DNA from: Gammaproteobacteria bacterium
GTDB taxonomy: Bacteria > Pseudomonadota > Gammaproteobacteria > SZUA-152
Assembly: GCA_022340845.1 (NCBI GenBank)
Contig: JAJDNG010000111.1
Coordinates: forward strand, 1-33,204
Reading direction: 5' to 3'
DNA: 33,204 nt
In this document: in pieces, positions 18,321 to 28,430 of the stretch
Layout of the letters: each line of letters opens with the position of its first letter
Numbering within the stretch: the stretch's first letter is position 1
Translations under genes and position numbers: made by a program
Notes under the pieces: generated by a model
Database searches by the model: none
What the model saw: only the letters and a program-made list of their open reading frames with translations
Told to the model about the DNA's origin: nothing

Positions 18321-20633
18321 TTAAATGGCGCTTTTCAATCGATCTTTCGGATGTAAGGCGCTGGGCTCGACGCGGGGCAGATCCACATAAAATATAGTTC
18401 CACCTTCCGGATTGGCCATAAACCCTATATTGCCTTTGTGGTTCTCTACGATAGCTTTTGCTATGTTTAAACCTAACCCCGTTCCTCCTACTTTTCTGGT
18501 ACTGGATGAGTCGACCTGGGTGAATCGCTCGAATATACGGGACTCAAATTCTGACGGAATACCGCGGCCTTTGTCCGCGACACTGATCCGAATCCTGCCG
18601 TTGTGAATATTTACGGCGGTTTCTACGCTGGCTCCATCGGGAGAAAATTTCGCCGCATTGGACAACAAGTTGCTCAGTACTTGCATCATGCGATTACGGT
18701 CGGCATACACAAATAGCTTTGTGTCGGAGGCGGCAATGACAAATTTGACATTATGTTGTTGGCCATAGCCTTGATTGGCTTCAACGGCATCATGCAGGAA
18801 TTTCGTTACTTCCAAATCCTGAAATTTGAATTCCATTTTTCCGGAAGCCAGTTTTTCCATATCCAAAAGATCGTTGATCAACAATAGCAATCGTTCGCTG
18901 TTATTGGCGGCAATGGATATCAGATTTTTTGTCTTTTCTTGGAAATCACCCATTTTTCCGCTGGTAAGCAAACCCAATGAGCCGCGGATGGATGTGAGCG
19001 GAGTGCGCAATTCATGACTGACAGTGGACACAAACTCTTGTTTCATTTTGTCGAGTTTTTTCCGTTCGGTAATATCCCGCATCACGCCGCAAAACAATCG
19101 TTGGCCTTCAACCCACATTTCCGAGACGGTCACTTCCAGGGGAAAAACCGAACCGTCTTTGCGGATTCCTTCCACTTCTCTACCGAGTCCGACAATATTA
19201 CTTTTACCATGATGCAAGTAATTAGCAATATATTCATTGTGATTTGCTGCGTGATCACCGGCTACCAGTATGGAAATGTTTTTACCGATGACCTCTGACG
19301 CAAGATAGCCAAAAAGATTTTCCGCAGCCGGGTTGAATCCTTCAATAAATCCTTCTTCATTTGTTGATACTATGCCCTCTGATATATTATTGACGATGGT
19401 ACGCATACGGACTTCGCGTTCACGTACAAGCATTTCGAATTTCAAACGGTTTTGTTCCGCTTTGTACGCTTCCACGATTTGCGTGCAGGTATTAATGATA
19501 GGTTTTAAATATGTGATTAACGCCTCATCATAACCTTGCGGCCGATTGGCCACGCCAAACATACCTATCACTTTGTCCTCACGCATGAAGGGAACTCCAA
19601 GGAATGCGTGTAACGGCGGATGACCATCCGGCAAACCCGCCGAGCGCGAGTCGTGCGCCGGAGAATTCGCGACGACGTTTTCCCCAGTCAAAATAGCGCA
19701 TCCAAACAGTGTGTGTACATTTCGAAATTCCAAACCATTTGGGGCGTTTTCATCGTAAAACTCCCTGGTTTGATCATTCCAAGCAATATTGGTCAAGGCG
19801 AATGTCTTCAAATAGGGTTTGTTGTGTTCGTGTAGCACTTCTCCGATAAATCCATATTCACTATTAGTTAGCGATAATATGTCATTCAACAACTTGTCGA
19901 AAATTTGTTTCGGATTGGCATCGCGAATAAATCGGGATTGAGCGTTTGTTATCACCTCCAGTACGCGATGCTGAAACGCGGTCTCTTTTTCTCGCGACTG
20001 AAGCTGGGACTGCATTTGGTCGATGGCTTTGGTTAATTGTCCCACTTCATCACTGGAGTGTTGCTGCAGGCTGTGGTTGAAATCTCCGTCAACGATTCTG
20101 TTGGTTGCATTGACCATAAGTTTAAGCGGCTTACGAATCCAGCGATCCAATAGCAAAGCGGCGAAAACGGTAATTACGAGAGTAAAAAACAACAGGCCAA
20201 ATTCCAGAGAAGCTATGCGTTTTACTTCCGTGTTCAAAAGAGTCGATATATCGAGCGCCACCTGTAAAGTGGCCAAGGCCTCCTGCCCATACGTAATTTC
20301 TTGGGATATTGCAATTAGGTTATTCGGTGCAGGGCTGTTTGTCGAGTCAATGGGGTATAATTGTTCATGGTTAGCGTTGAACAATCTAACGCTTTTCCAA
20401 TGCGGCCTGCGTGCGGAGATTGTATCCAGAGTTGCGTGAATCTGAGCCAGGTCGCTTGCCAGTAACGGCGGTATCAGGCTGGCCGCGAGAGCTTCTATAT
20501 AAGCGGCTTCTTGGTCGTGGATGTTACCCTCTTTTTCCGTGAGATATTCCGGAAGCCAAATCAGATGGAATATTAGTCCCAGAAAAACCACAGCCAGGAT
20601 GAACGGCAATAATAATTTGAAACGTATACTCAT
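18321..20633 (-). CDS. Membrane sensor histidine kinase (sensor-HAMP-GAF-PAS-HisKA-HATPase)
   Basis: A 770-residue kinase. Transmembrane segment 1 (residues about 7-27) and 2 (about 145-167) enclose a periplasmic sensor of about 115 residues. Then come HAMP (RKPLKLMVNATNRIVDGDF), a GAF domain (TNSEYGFIGEV to FGVANRPQGYD), a PAS domain (VNNISEGIVSTNEEGFIEGF to CGVMRDITERKK), HisKA with His540 in FVSTVSHELRTPL, and the ATPase domain with N-box LSNLLSNAAKFSPDG, G1 ADKGRGIP and G2 GTGLGLNIAK. There is no receiver domain. It starts 12 bp after the stop of a PhnD-like binding protein gene, so the two probably form an operon and the binding protein may deliver ligand to the sensor. No cognate response regulator with an output domain is adjacent. 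Confidence 0.95.
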   Translation of the reverse strand: MSIRFKLLLPFILAVVFLGLIFHLIWLPEYLTEKEGNIHDQEAAYIEALAASLIPPLLASDLAQIHATLDTISARRPHWKSVRLFNANHEQLYPIDSTNSPAPNNLIAISQEITYGQEALATLQVALDISTLLNTEVKRIASLEFGLLFFTLVITVFAALLLDRWIRKPLKLMVNATNRIVDGDFNHSLQQHSSDEVGQLTKAIDQMQSQLQSREKETAFQHRVLEVITNAQSRFIRDANPKQIFDKLLNDILSLTNSEYGFIGEVLHEHNKPYLKTFALTNIAWNDQTREFYDENAPNGLEFRNVHTLFGCAILTGENVVANSPAHDSRSAGLPDGHPPLHAFLGVPFMREDKVIGMFGVANRPQGYDEALITYLKPIINTCTQIVEAYKAEQNRLKFEMLVREREVRMRTIVNNISEGIVSTNEEGFIEGFNPAAENLFGYLASEVIGKNISILVAGDHAANHNEYIANYLHHGKSNIVGLGREVEGIRKDGSVFPLEVTVSEMWVEGQRLFCGVMRDITERKKLDKMKQEFVSTVSHELRTPLTSIRGSLGLLTSGKMGDFQEKTKNLISIAANNSERLLLLINDLLDMEKLASGKMEFKFQDLEVTKFLHDAVEANQGYGQQHNVKFVIAASDTKLFVYADRNRMMQVLSNLLSNAAKFSPDGASVETAVNIHNGRIRISVADKGRGIPSEFESRIFERFTQVDSSSTRKVGGTGLGLNIAKAIVENHKGNIGFMANPEGGTIFYVDLPRVEPSALHPKDRLKSAI

Positions 20634-20645
20634 AGATAGTGCGAT

Positions 20646-21527
20646 CTATTCCAAAAAATATTTGTCCAATCCAAGGTTTATCAACGCATCATAGTCCTCC
20701 ATCGTTGCCGTACCGATTTGATTCATGGGTATTTCCTTGAGTAGGGCTCGTCCTTGAGCGCTGTTTCCCAGCGCTAGGAACGATTCCAGTATTTTCTTTT
20801 TTACCGCCTCGGGTACGCGCGGATGAACTGCGAGCGGGTGGGGCGCGACTTTGCGAGTTTGATAAATAATTTTCAGGGCGTCGCGAACATTCTGGGGTTG
20901 TTTATTAAACGTTTTCTGCACACCACCGCCGGCATCCGCTTGGCCTAATAACACGTTTAAATACACCGAATCGTGGCTGCGAACGTATTTAGGCTGGACG
21001 TTGATCTTATAGATTTCGCCGAATTCGGTGCGGGGAATTAATGCAGCTCCCAAAGCATTGGGTGCGGGAAATGCTACGGTTTTTCCTTGCAAATCTGTAA
21101 CTTGCTGTATAGAGCTGTCCTTTCGCACAACAATGATACCGTATAATTGCCGACCGATATCTCTCAACAAGGGTTGGTAATTCTGGGCTTCTCGCGCTTT
21201 GATCAGGTGGTATGGATTCATATAGGCAAAGTCAAATTCGCCAGCGGCAAATTGTTTTTCAAATGTCGGAATATTTGCCGATCCCAGTAATTCAAATTGA
21301 AGCCCTGATTGCTTACTCACAGCATCAAGAATCGGCTGCCAAATGTTTTTGATGCGGCGAGCATCAAATTGGGGAACTACACCAAATTTATATACTTTTT
21401 CGACAGCGGTGCTGGGATACGAAAAGAACAGGCCGAAACAGGCAATACTGAGCAATACGAAGGTGGATCCGAATGGTTTTATGCGCAACATGGTGGGTGT
21501 CCAATACTTGCTATTTCCGGAAATCAC
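20646..21527 (-). CDS. PhnD-like periplasmic substrate-binding protein
   Basis: A 293-residue exported protein of the phosphate/phosphite/phosphonate binding (PhnD/SsuA-like) family. The signal peptide is clear (STFVLLSIACFGLFFSYPSTA). The mature part shows the family pattern: YKFGVVPQFDARRIKNIWQP, GEFDFAYMNPYHLIKA, DLQGKTVAFPAPNALGA and DAGGGVQKTFN. The called start is a GTG without a clear ribosome site; ATG at 21491 (MLRIKPFGS) gives a more typical signal peptide and is a good alternative. No ABC permease or ATPase is nearby; the partner is the histidine kinase 12 bp downstream. This context suggests a sensory role rather than uptake. The ligand is not predictable; the family binds oxyanions and organophosphorus compounds among others. 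Confidence 0.9.
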   Translation of the reverse strand: MISGNSKYWTPTMLRIKPFGSTFVLLSIACFGLFFSYPSTAVEKVYKFGVVPQFDARRIKNIWQPILDAVSKQSGLQFELLGSANIPTFEKQFAAGEFDFAYMNPYHLIKAREAQNYQPLLRDIGRQLYGIIVVRKDSSIQQVTDLQGKTVAFPAPNALGAALIPRTEFGEIYKINVQPKYVRSHDSVYLNVLLGQADAGGGVQKTFNKQPQNVRDALKIIYQTRKVAPHPLAVHPRVPEAVKKKILESFLALGNSAQGRALLKEIPMNQIGTATMEDYDALINLGLDKYFLE

Positions 21528-23958: not shown

Positions 23959-23998
23959 TACGCAACCGGATTCGTTCCCCAATCAACCAAACAAAATA

Positions 23999-24032
23999 AA
24001 AAAGCGCTCCTGGATCACCAGGAGCGCTTTTT
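23999..24032. terminator. Strong bidirectional intrinsic terminator
   Basis: A 15-bp perfect stem (23999-24013 with 24018-24032) with a 4-nt loop, ATCA. The GC-rich core GCGCTCCTGG is flanked by five A on one side and five T on the other, so it gives a proper U-run on both strands. It sits between the convergent hybrid kinase and PASTA protein genes. Confidence 0.95.
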
Positions 24033-24068
24033 CAAATACTACTATAATAGTTGGTTACGATAAGGAAG

Positions 24069-26312
24069 TTACAACGGATTGCAGAAACGAGTCCGCGTCA
24101 CCACTAAATCAACCTCGCTTCCCGTAGAGACACTGGTGCCACCTGTGGGTGTTTGGCTTCGCACTACGCCACAGGAACGCCGGGTACTTACAGTGGACAC
24201 GTTACCCATCACCAATCCGGCAGAAGTGATGCGGTTCACCGCTGTGGAATAGTTCAGCCCAACCACATCCGGTACGCTCACAGCGGCCGAACCGGTGGAT
24301 ATCACCAAATCCACACTGCTGCCCGCTGAGACTTGAGTGCCCCCGTTGGGTGTTTGGCTTATTACGTTGCCAGCCGGCACGGAATTGCTGCTGACAGAAC
24401 TAATGCTGCCTACAATCAAGCCTGCAGTGGTAATAGCCGATTCGGCCGCGGACTGGCTCAAGCCGACAACCGATGGTGTGCTGACCAACGCCGGGCCTGA
24501 TGACACGGTTAAATCCACCTCAGTTCCGGGAGTGACCGGGTATCCACCTAATGGTGTCTGACTGATAACGTTGCCAGCCAGTACTGTATCGCTGTTGAAG
24601 TAAGTGACGGCGCCGAGCACCAGGCCTGCTGCCGTGATATCTGTTTCAGCAGTCGCCAACGACAAGCCCACTACGTAGGGTGTCGTAATAGGGGCCGGTC
24701 CCAAGGAAATTACCAGATCCACAGTGCTGCCCACGTACACCAGAGCGCCGCCGGAAGGGTTGGAACTGATCACATTACCGGCGTCCACAACTGGATAGGC
24801 CGGGCTGTACTCAAAAGTAACGGTGCCCACGACCAATAGTGCGCTAATCGCAGCCTCGGCATCCGCCTGGGAAAGCTGACGCACATCAGGGACAATAGTC
24901 AGCGCGGGCTCAGGGCCGGCGGATACCACTAAATCTATCGAGCTTCCTGAGGCTACGCTGGTTCCTGCTGATGGCGTCTGGCTGATGATACTGCCTTCGG
25001 CAACAGTATCGCTGTAGGCGCTGCTGACATCGCCCACTAGTAAACCCAGGTTGGTGATGGCAGTTTGAGCCGTGGCCTGGGTTGCTCCAACCACATCGGG
25101 TACGATTACGGTCGCCGCGGGGCCTGTTGACACCACAATTGCCACGGCAGAGCCGGCCGCCACTTCAGTGGTAGCGGCTGGATTCTGGCTGATGACATTA
25201 CCTGCGGTTACCGTTTCGCTCGCTGCCGTTGTCACGGTAGCGCTGAGACCCGCATCGCCGAGGGTTGATTCTGCCAGCGCCTGGGCCAGACCGGTCACAT
25301 CGGGTACCGCCACAATTGCCGGTCCGGGACCGTCGGAGACAATTAATAGTATAGAGTCTCCGGCAAACGCGCCGGAGCCGGGCTGCGGATCCTGAGAGAT
25401 TACGTTGCCCGCAAAATCAATGTCAGTGGTGCTGTAAAGAATATCACTGACGACAAAACCCAATGCTTCCAGAGTCGCCACGGCTTGCGCCTCAGCCATG
25501 CCGTCCAGATTTGGTACAAAGCGCAGGTTTGGATCCGGCGGCAAGGTGCTGGAAGAGACCCATTGCAATTTGTTTACCAGTAAGTTGTAAGCGTTCACTT
25601 GCGCGGCGGTGCCGGTGCTTAGACCGGAATCATCCTGGGCGTTTTGTGTGACTATGATTCGCCCGGCGTTGACCTCACCGTATAAACCGTACGTAATAGT
25701 ACCTAAGCCGGTAGCATTGGCCTGCAGGAACGGTGTCAGTTGCGCGTCCCAATTAAGTAGGTAACCGGTGGTGAATGTGAAATCGCCGGTTATACCATCG
25801 GTAATGCCTGGAGCCTGCAACACATCCAACGGGCTATTGGGAATGTAACAAATAGTACCATTAGGACACGTATATCGAATGCCACGCTGGTCAAATAGCG
25901 GGCTGCCGGCGGTACCGGTGGTCATGGGTGCTTCCCAGATTACCCCGCCGCCACTGGCTAGAATTGGTAGTACCCGTGTGCTCCAGTCGAAGTCATACAA
26001 GCTTGCCGAAGTGTTATAAGGAATTAAAAATACATCGTAGTTGTTGATAATGTCTTCGGTAGTCATTTCCCGGTAGACGCTCCAACTGGGCCGATCAATC
26101 GATCCTACCAAATCGCCGTTGGCAAAAATCTCCTCAGTTGCACCGGTAGTAGCATCGCCACCGGCGGCCAGAACGCGGATTTCAGCGTGCGCGTTGGCAA
26201 TGAAGCCTAACATTATTAGAATCAGAATAAAAAGTGTTGCCCCTGTTTTTCTAGCACAACGAGTTCTCATGCTAGCGATTCTAACGCTATCAATTACAGC
26301 GGTACTGCTCAT
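24069..26312 (-). CDS. Secreted protein with seven PASTA repeats and an N-terminal amidotransferase-like domain
   Basis: A 747-residue protein with an extended signal peptide, likely cut after NAHA (residue 43). The start at 26312 has a good site (GAGGGG, 7-bp spacing); an ATG 14 codons on is possible. Residues about 44-255 hold a globular domain (IRVLAAGGDATTG, YDVFLIPYNTSASLYDFDWS, ILASGGGVIWEAP) that looks like a ThuA/class I amidotransferase-like Rossmann fold, without an obvious catalytic Cys-His pair. From residue 265 to the end lie seven PASTA repeats of about 65 residues, each with (I/V)PDVVGL, an Ala/Ile-rich helix, GNVISQTP and a VDLVVSxGP strand. The C-terminus is a short Cys-containing tail. 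PASTA domains usually bind peptidoglycan or muropeptides on Ser/Thr kinases and PBPs; here there is no kinase or transpeptidase. It is probably periplasmic or surface exposed. Confidence 0.93.
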   Translation of the reverse strand: MSSTAVIDSVRIASMRTRCARKTGATLFILILIMLGFIANAHAEIRVLAAGGDATTGATEEIFANGDLVGSIDRPSWSVYREMTTEDIINNYDVFLIPYNTSASLYDFDWSTRVLPILASGGGVIWEAPMTTGTAGSPLFDQRGIRYTCPNGTICYIPNSPLDVLQAPGITDGITGDFTFTTGYLLNWDAQLTPFLQANATGLGTITYGLYGEVNAGRIIVTQNAQDDSGLSTGTAAQVNAYNLLVNKLQWVSSSTLPPDPNLRFVPNLDGMAEAQAVATLEALGFVVSDILYSTTDIDFAGNVISQDPQPGSGAFAGDSILLIVSDGPGPAIVAVPDVTGLAQALAESTLGDAGLSATVTTAASETVTAGNVISQNPAATTEVAAGSAVAIVVSTGPAATVIVPDVVGATQATAQTAITNLGLLVGDVSSAYSDTVAEGSIISQTPSAGTSVASGSSIDLVVSAGPEPALTIVPDVRQLSQADAEAAISALLVVGTVTFEYSPAYPVVDAGNVISSNPSGGALVYVGSTVDLVISLGPAPITTPYVVGLSLATAETDITAAGLVLGAVTYFNSDTVLAGNVISQTPLGGYPVTPGTEVDLTVSSGPALVSTPSVVGLSQSAAESAITTAGLIVGSISSVSSNSVPAGNVISQTPNGGTQVSAGSSVDLVISTGSAAVSVPDVVGLNYSTAVNRITSAGLVMGNVSTVSTRRSCGVVRSQTPTGGTSVSTGSEVDLVVTRTRFCNPL

Positions 26313-26777: not shown

Positions 26778-28430
26778 ATGATAAGCTGGTTTTCTTCCTT
26801 AAGCATACGCTGGAAACTGCAGTTCGGTTTTTTTGCCGTAACGATGGTCACCACTATTTATAACCGCTGGCTGGCTGCGTCGGAACTGGGAGGATTCATA
26901 CATATCGCGAAACAGCACAGTGTTGACCCTCAAGTTGTCGTGCTACTCCAACAAAAATACGACGGCTACATTTTCAATTCATTTTGGGAGTCGGGTATTG
27001 AATTCGCTATTCAGTTTGTCATTATCGGGATAGTCGCTTCGCTGTTCGTCAAACCGATTAAAGCCTTGTGTGTGGCGCTCAAGGCCATAGAAGAGGGTGA
27101 TCTTACCAATGAAATAGCAAGTCCCTCGCATGACGAAATCGGTGTTTTGCAGCGCAGTTTCAATGGTGTGTTGGCCAAACTCAACAGCATTATGCATCGC
27201 ATCGATGAAAGTGGAAAACAAATGGGGCAGTCGGCGTATCAAATTGCCATGATTTCTCATGAGATTGCCGAAGTGGGTAAAAATGAAAACCAACGTTCGC
27301 AAGCGGTGACCAATGCCACGCAACAATTAAATGATATATCCGAGTCCGTACAATTACTGGCCAATGAGGCCACCGAAAGCGCCAGACAAACGGAAAGCCA
27401 TGCCCAGGATGGGATTGAAAAAGTACGCGCCAATATTCAACTCATGCAAAAAACCGCTGAAGATGTGCAACAAGCCGCTAATGAAATATTCGAGTTGAAA
27501 AAGGCGGCCGAGAAAATCAATAATATCGTGACCACCATTAGCACCGTAGCGGAGCAGACCAATTTGCTGTCCTTGAACGCAGCGATAGAAGCCGCGCGTG
27601 CCGGTGAACAAGGCCGCGGTTTTGCGGTGGTCGCCGATGAAGTGAGAAATCTCGCCAGGGGTACTTCCGATTCGGTGGAAGAAATCTCGCAAATAATAAC
27701 GACCCTAACCAACAAGGTGCAATTAGCCGCTGAGGGCATGAACAGTGTGGTGCAGGAAGTACAGGGAAACCAGCAACGTGCCGGTGATATCGAAATTATA
27801 TTCGGCCATATGAGCGGCGTCATTTCCGAGACTGCGGCAGCCAACCACAAAATATTCGATGCCAGCCGGGAACAAATGGAACAGTTTCAATTGCTGCGCT
27901 CGACGTTGGATCAATTATTCGAAACGTTGAACGAAAGTTCCTCGAAAGTGGAAACCACCGCCACCATCGGTGATGACTTGTATCGGATAACGGAAAAACT
28001 TAATGCACTGATGCGTGGTTTCAGATTTAATCATTATACGCCGCATCAGAAAGTTGAGAATGAAAAGCGCAAACACCCCCGGGCGGAAAACAGCTTGTTG
28101 GTCAAGGTTCATCATCATGGTCATACTACGGAAGGCATCAGTAGCGATTTTAGTTTGTCGGGAATCCAGGTACGTCTTTGCGAACCAATAGGGCGCGATG
28201 AATCCATCTCCATGGATGTTTATTTACCGCACGACGACTTGGATCAATACGCCAGCCAAGAACCTTTGCAAGTCCAAGGCCGCGTGGCCTGGCATCGGCC
28301 TGACGAAAAAGAAGCCGGGCGACATTACATCGGAGTAAAATTTGAAAACGTGGACGACTACGGTAAAAAGCGATTGGAAAAGTGTTTTGCCTACTTTAAT
28401 AAGGACGCGACTTTTACCGATGCAACATAA
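26778..28430 (+). CDS. Methyl-accepting chemotaxis protein with C-terminal PilZ domain
   Basis: A 550-residue chemoreceptor. Transmembrane segments (about residues 14-30 and 73-91) enclose a short periplasmic loop of about 40 residues, too small for a classic ligand domain. HAMP follows ([20 protein letters not shown]), then the cytoplasmic signalling helices with the conserved hairpin tip near residues 258-292 ([20 protein letters not shown]). From about residue 430 there is a PilZ domain with the RxxxR motif in [10 protein letters not shown] and the D/NxSxxG motif in [12 protein letters not shown], both needed for cyclic-di-GMP binding. The receptor may thus tune chemotaxis to c-di-GMP, as reported for Azospirillum Tlp1. 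No CheR-binding pentapeptide is at the end. It is a single-gene unit driven by a sigma-28-like promoter. Confidence 0.95.

Follow-up and report, generated by a model that had tools for sequence, protein, structure and literature searches.

Almost without exception, PASTA domains are interpreted as the part of kinases and penicillin-binding proteins that senses the cell wall. In vitro, the PASTA domains of PknB, PrkC, StkP and others bind muropeptides (PMC5786024), and in a model of PknB the SK..NQ positions of the PASTA linker have been proposed as contacts with the iGln/mDAP part of the muropeptide (PMC6428115). In StkP, the action of the repeats does not depend on muropeptide binding (PMC5786024), and the terminal PASTA is decisive in both StkP and PknB (PMC5786024, PMC6428115); in PknB, the length of the array matters too (PMC6428115).

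The protein considered here combines seven PASTA repeats with an unclassified head and is encoded in a 33,204-nucleotide stretch of gammaproteobacterial DNA (hereafter, the window). The gene, its parts and the adjacent hairpin are located in the window as follows.

24069..26312, minus strand: whole gene (747 aa), comprising signal, orphan head, seven PASTA repeats and Cys/Arg end cap
26184..26312, minus strand: putative Sec-type signal peptide, residues 1-43, recognised by sequence (basic stretch, hydrophobic core, predicted cleavage between AHA and E)
25536..26183, minus strand: orphan head, residues 44-259, with invariant C149 and C155 (CPNGTIC)
25332..25517, minus strand: PASTA repeat 1 (47.8 bits; first-repeat clade support 0.974)
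25125..25313, minus strand: PASTA repeat 2 (54.6 bits)
24921..25109, minus strand: PASTA repeat 3 (67.3 bits)
24705..24896, minus strand: PASTA repeat 4 (42.7 bits)
24498..24686, minus strand: PASTA repeat 5 (47.6 bits)
24294..24479, minus strand: PASTA repeat 6 (57.6 bits; modelled with repeat 7, pLDDT 92.6)
24099..24281, minus strand: PASTA repeat 7, terminal, with C714 (45.9 bits; terminal-repeat clade support 0.996)
24072..24098, minus strand: C-terminal tail past the last strand, ending RTRFCNPL with C744 (invariant RTRxCNPL; ordered in the model)
23997..24034, minus strand: terminator-like hairpin (17 pairs and a T run) between the PASTA gene and a convergent hybrid histidine kinase gene

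A Pfam search of the 747-aa ORF returned seven PASTA matches (whole-protein E 6.5e-90), and in the genome search every one of the seven repeats scored above the curated PF03793 cut-off of 23.2 bits (42.7-67.3 bits), which confirms the seven repeats of the original prediction. The ORF itself lies at the coordinates and on the strand given for it. No further PASTA gene was found when the source assembly was searched with the PASTA profile. An assembly artefact or frame error is ruled out by the uninterrupted ORF and by orthologues in two other assemblies. Profile searches matched neither a kinase nor a transpeptidase domain in the protein, and the score against the PASTA kinase model NF033483 was 292.7 against a cut-off of 450 bits, with the best stretch lying inside the repeats. 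No signalling domain, membrane anchor or second membrane segment was seen in the 747 residues, and sequence inspection revealed no lipobox. The cleavage context of the signal is AHA-EIRV, an in-frame ATG at codon 15 provides an alternative start within the signal region, and both orthologues likewise begin with a signal-like segment that closes with A-x-A; we infer that the Sec system exports the protein. Thus, the description of an exported protein without kinase or transpeptidase is supported, as is its Gram-negative host: the two named relatives are Ectothiorhodospiraceae and Proteobacteria MAGs, the former placed by NCBI in Gammaproteobacteria.

The original prediction also took a well-kept GNVISQTP core as a sign of selection. 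The core is exact in repeats 5 and 6, while the other five repeats differ from it (GNVISQDP, GNVISQNP, GSIISQTP, GNVISSNP and GVVRSQTP), and since it is the generic PASTA consensus, it is not in itself evidence for selection. A better indication is provided by the orthologues, between which synonymous sites are saturated while the non-synonymous difference in the head and last repeat amounts to 0.22-0.31, indicating that purifying selection acts on these two parts. Tandem duplication is not visible at the DNA level in the repeat region, so that the repeats are old and a recent expansion is ruled out.

Another important question is whether seven PASTA repeats on a secreted protein are as rare among Gram-negatives as was first supposed. 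Among 369 sampled genomes of the class, PASTA matches were found in 20 (18 above the cut-off), and many of the inspected frames were non-kinase; in some of these a transmembrane segment separates the PASTA repeats from an N-terminal domain, and others are giant and exported. In the window's own family, PASTA is present in 9 of 24 genomes; the seven annotated PASTA proteins of the family (complete or partial) carry PKD, RHS, teneurin-like, VWA or IgGFc-binding domains, none has a kinase, and all look exported, most being PKD/RHS giants. The rarity was therefore overstated: several of the sampled Gammaproteobacteria have exported PASTA proteins without a kinase, and in the family this form prevails. 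No paper describing non-kinase PASTA in Gram-negatives was found in the open-access literature. PASTA off the kinase is thus not itself news in Gram-negatives, and the new part of this protein is its orphan head and conserved Cys/Arg cap.

The sampled relatives display several architectures. Five loci from genomes of the family and the class (L144, L148, L141, L150 and L145) encode giant exported proteins of two kinds: PKD domains are joined either to RHS/teneurin-like shells and between two and five PASTA repeats (up to 2411 aa, open ended) or to an IgGFc-binding N-terminal domain and a single C-terminal PASTA. A kinase is absent from all of them. A 686-aa protein (L051:1-3555) has a signal-like segment at its N-terminus, a transmembrane segment at its C-terminus and six PASTA repeats, which differ from the window repeats in being rich in lysine and arginine. 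Several Gammaproteobacteria (L054, L055, L057 and L050) have proteins in which one to four PASTA repeats accompany a single transmembrane segment and an N-terminal domain of Ig-like appearance; one genome (G363) carries two such genes on the same contig.

Orthologues of the whole protein were found in only two other genomes, with 48-49% identity and six and seven repeats. The first (L009/L011, NORP100), a MAG deposited as Ectothiorhodospiraceae, belongs to the same family; the second (L010/L012, UBA6915), also a MAG, is the sole representative of its order in the genome set. All three proteins have the same plan of signal, head, six to seven PASTA repeats and end cap. No more relatives were detected in the samples of 369 class genomes and 398 phylum genomes, and a scan of 84,980 genomes, made with two exact peptide patterns only, matched the same two genomes. 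Matches of the head profile over the 398 phylum genomes (E 8.5e-4 to 0.03 per genome) were attributed to chance, the inspected frames being taken as HldE, a beta-helix-like protein, a TonB-receptor-like protein or an antisense frame. Plasmids and viral contigs contained no homologue of the head or of the terminal cap, and with the whole protein as query, phages yielded matches to the PASTA repeats and nothing else. Taken together, the three proteins form a family that is real, conserved, rare and unnamed.

The neighbourhood is not conserved: apart from the PASTA gene, no ORF at either relative's locus matches the window, and gene neighbours differ in all three genomes. Each of the two neighbours in the window comes from a large family of paralogues (hybrid histidine kinase and MCP), and no clear orthologue of either was recognised when the flanking site was sought in a sister species (G001). 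The divergent neighbour (window 26778-28430) encodes a methyl-accepting chemotaxis protein that has a PilZ domain fused to its C-terminus. Farther away (window 18321-21527), a GAF-PAS histidine kinase gene is immediately preceded, on its own strand, by the gene of a PhnD-like periplasmic binding protein, and the two probably constitute a ligand-sensing pair.

The history of the repeats was assessed in a tree of the 20 repeats from the three orthologous proteins. Terminal repeats cluster together with a support of 0.996 and first repeats with 0.974, while the middle repeats show no one-to-one pairing across the orthologues. The head, the first repeat and the last repeat are inherited as units and the middle repeats are not; the best-kept parts across the three proteins are the head and the terminal repeat. 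Fixed ends and an exchangeable middle are what one would expect of a stalk whose head and tip are both functional. We therefore tentatively prefer, with somewhat less than even confidence, to regard the protein as an exported, soluble stalk in which the head would bind, the repeats would act as spacers and the end cap would have a function of its own. The varying repeat count (six to seven) and the use of same-family PASTA arrays in kinase-free PKD/RHS/teneurin-like giants support this interpretation, whereas genomic context, with its differing neighbours, lends it nothing, and only three orthologues are available.

The end cap is distinguished by its chemistry. Repeat 7 has TRRSCG where the usual repeats have a VPAG loop, and together with the tail it forms the motif TRRSCG...TRTRxCNPL; TRRSCG and the RTRxCNPL ending are invariant in all three orthologues. 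The mature window protein contains four cysteines, all invariant among the orthologues: C149 and C155 are the only ones in the head, and C714 and C744 the only ones in the repeat region. Because these cysteines are conserved, C714 and C744 are regarded as a probable disulfide pair and C149-C155 as a likely disulfide. The UBA6915 orthologue (L010:1402-3615) has an additional adjacent cysteine pair, C351 and C352, in its second repeat. Five of the eight arginines of the repeat region lie within repeat 7 and the tail (R711, R712, R718, R740 and R742). Lysine is absent from all seven repeats; the composition is acidic and rich in Ser/Thr/Val/Ala/Gly, and the net charge over the repeat region is -29.

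These features bear on the possibility that the PASTA array is attached over its full length to the cell wall in the periplasm, where it would display the head. The muropeptide binding of PknB, PrkC and StkP in vitro (PMC5786024) and the presence of a signal for the periplasm favour such a role, and the terminal arginines could meet stem-peptide carboxylates. However, the repeats are lysine-free and strongly negative, membrane anchor and signalling domain are both absent, and the linkers do not keep the SK..NQ positions of PknB (PMC6428115), reading instead SDGPG, STGPA, SAGPE, SLGPA, SSGPA and STGSA when compared by eye with the published positions. On these same grounds, peptidoglycan sensing, put forward in the original prediction, is not supported, and we consider wall binding along the array doubtful.

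A somewhat less probable role is that of a cell-surface or matrix protein, which would be secreted across the outer membrane and function in adhesion or as part of the matrix, comparable to the family's PKD-PASTA-RHS giants. PASTA arrays of close sequence do occur in giant exported proteins of sister genomes, and the acidic, lysine-free composition and the stabilising cysteines would suit an extracellular location. Against this, the protein showed none of the known signals for outer-membrane secretion or sorting, and no secretion system is adjacent to the gene; to our knowledge, the conserved RTRxCNPL end matches no known sorting signal.

Whether the array is extended was addressed in a predicted model of repeats 6-7 with the tail, which has the PASTA fold (pLDDT 92.6), with one helix against three strands, and matches PASTA structures in Foldseek (E 6.8e-11). 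The pair superposes on kinase PASTA (PknB 5e12, TM 0.73; S. aureus 3m9g, TM 0.68) but not on the PBP2x and PBP1 pairs (TM about 0.35, rmsd 16). This kinase-like, non-PBP geometry of the modelled pair points to an extended chain for the PASTA array.

The orphan head, residues 44-259, matched no Pfam model, even at E 10, and nothing credible in the PDB by phmmer or by profile. The Rossmann or amidotransferase-like fold proposed for it in the original prediction is weakly supported: in hhalign, a profile of the three heads aligned with ThuA (PF06283) over 34 of 225 columns at a probability of only 8%, with a weak core at YDVFLIPYN...LASGGGVI, although this score exceeded those of 300 of 300 column shuffles and of the reversed profile. 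DUF4350 gave a similar but weaker result, and the positive control, ThuA against DUF4350, reached 71%. The AlphaFold model of the head is unreliable (pLDDT 38.6; alignment of three sequences only), and its small-GTPase matches in Foldseek are noise. To call the head amidotransferase-like is thus no more than a fair guess.

Alternatively, the head could have enzymatic activity and a new fold, GATase-like or other, with the PASTA array as its tether. The head is well conserved (67% and 53% identity to the two orthologues) with many invariant polar residues, including E60, N65, D67, D73, R74 and E127, and the weak ThuA-like core agrees with such a role; however, no enzyme family was matched, the window head has no histidine, and its sole cysteines lie in the CPNGTIC loop, which looks like a disulfide site rather than a nucleophile elbow. 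We regard an enzymatic head as very unlikely.

The stalk interpretation is preferred over the wall binder, the surface protein and the enzyme because of the fixed ends and exchangeable middle, the kinase literature and the lack of SK..NQ. In such a protein, the acidic, lysine-free middle beads would serve as an exchangeable spacer of the kinase-type extended geometry, the terminal bead would do the specific work on its side by attaching to a partner or to an anionic polymer of the envelope, and the head would bind a ligand or partner at the opposite end. PASTA would here be mainly an extension module and not a kinase sensor. A more ambitious proposal, which we advance only as a speculative one, is that of a new exported family in which a head of undescribed fold sits on a PASTA stalk closed by a disulfide-stapled, arginine-bearing terminal PASTA, with PASTA acting as a peptidoglycan-independent extracellular spacer. 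Together with the giants of its relatives, the seven-PASTA protein indicates that PASTA arrays serve some Gram-negatives as a general-purpose building block outside the cell, and with the conserved end cap the role of a terminal PASTA without a kinase becomes open to direct tests in a small system. The impact would be modest unless the head proves to have a new fold or activity.

In comparison with known systems, the protein shares with the PASTA Ser/Thr kinases (PknB, PrkC, StkP and IreK; NF033483, PknB_PASTA_kin) the PASTA fold, the extended pair geometry predicted by the model and a distinctive terminal repeat, but it has no kinase or transmembrane helix, its seven repeats are lysine-free and SK..NQ is absent. 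As in the PASTA penicillin-binding proteins (PBP2x, SpoVD and PBP1), the repeats are expected outside the cytoplasm, although a transpeptidase is lacking and the modelled pair is not compact like those of PBP2x and PBP1. With the ThuA/class I glutamine amidotransferase-like fold, the head shares a weak strand-helix-strand core (YDxxxxxNT...F/LxxSGGG) but has neither a match in sequence libraries nor a recognisable catalytic Cys-His, and the likeness covers those 34 columns only. The PKD-PASTA-RHS/teneurin-like giants (L144, L148 and L141 of the same family and L150, another member of the class) are likewise exported, non-kinase proteins with very similar lysine-poor PASTA arrays; unlike the window protein, the giants carry PKD, VWA, RHS or NHL and reach 2411 aa, and they have neither the orphan head nor the Cys/Arg cap.
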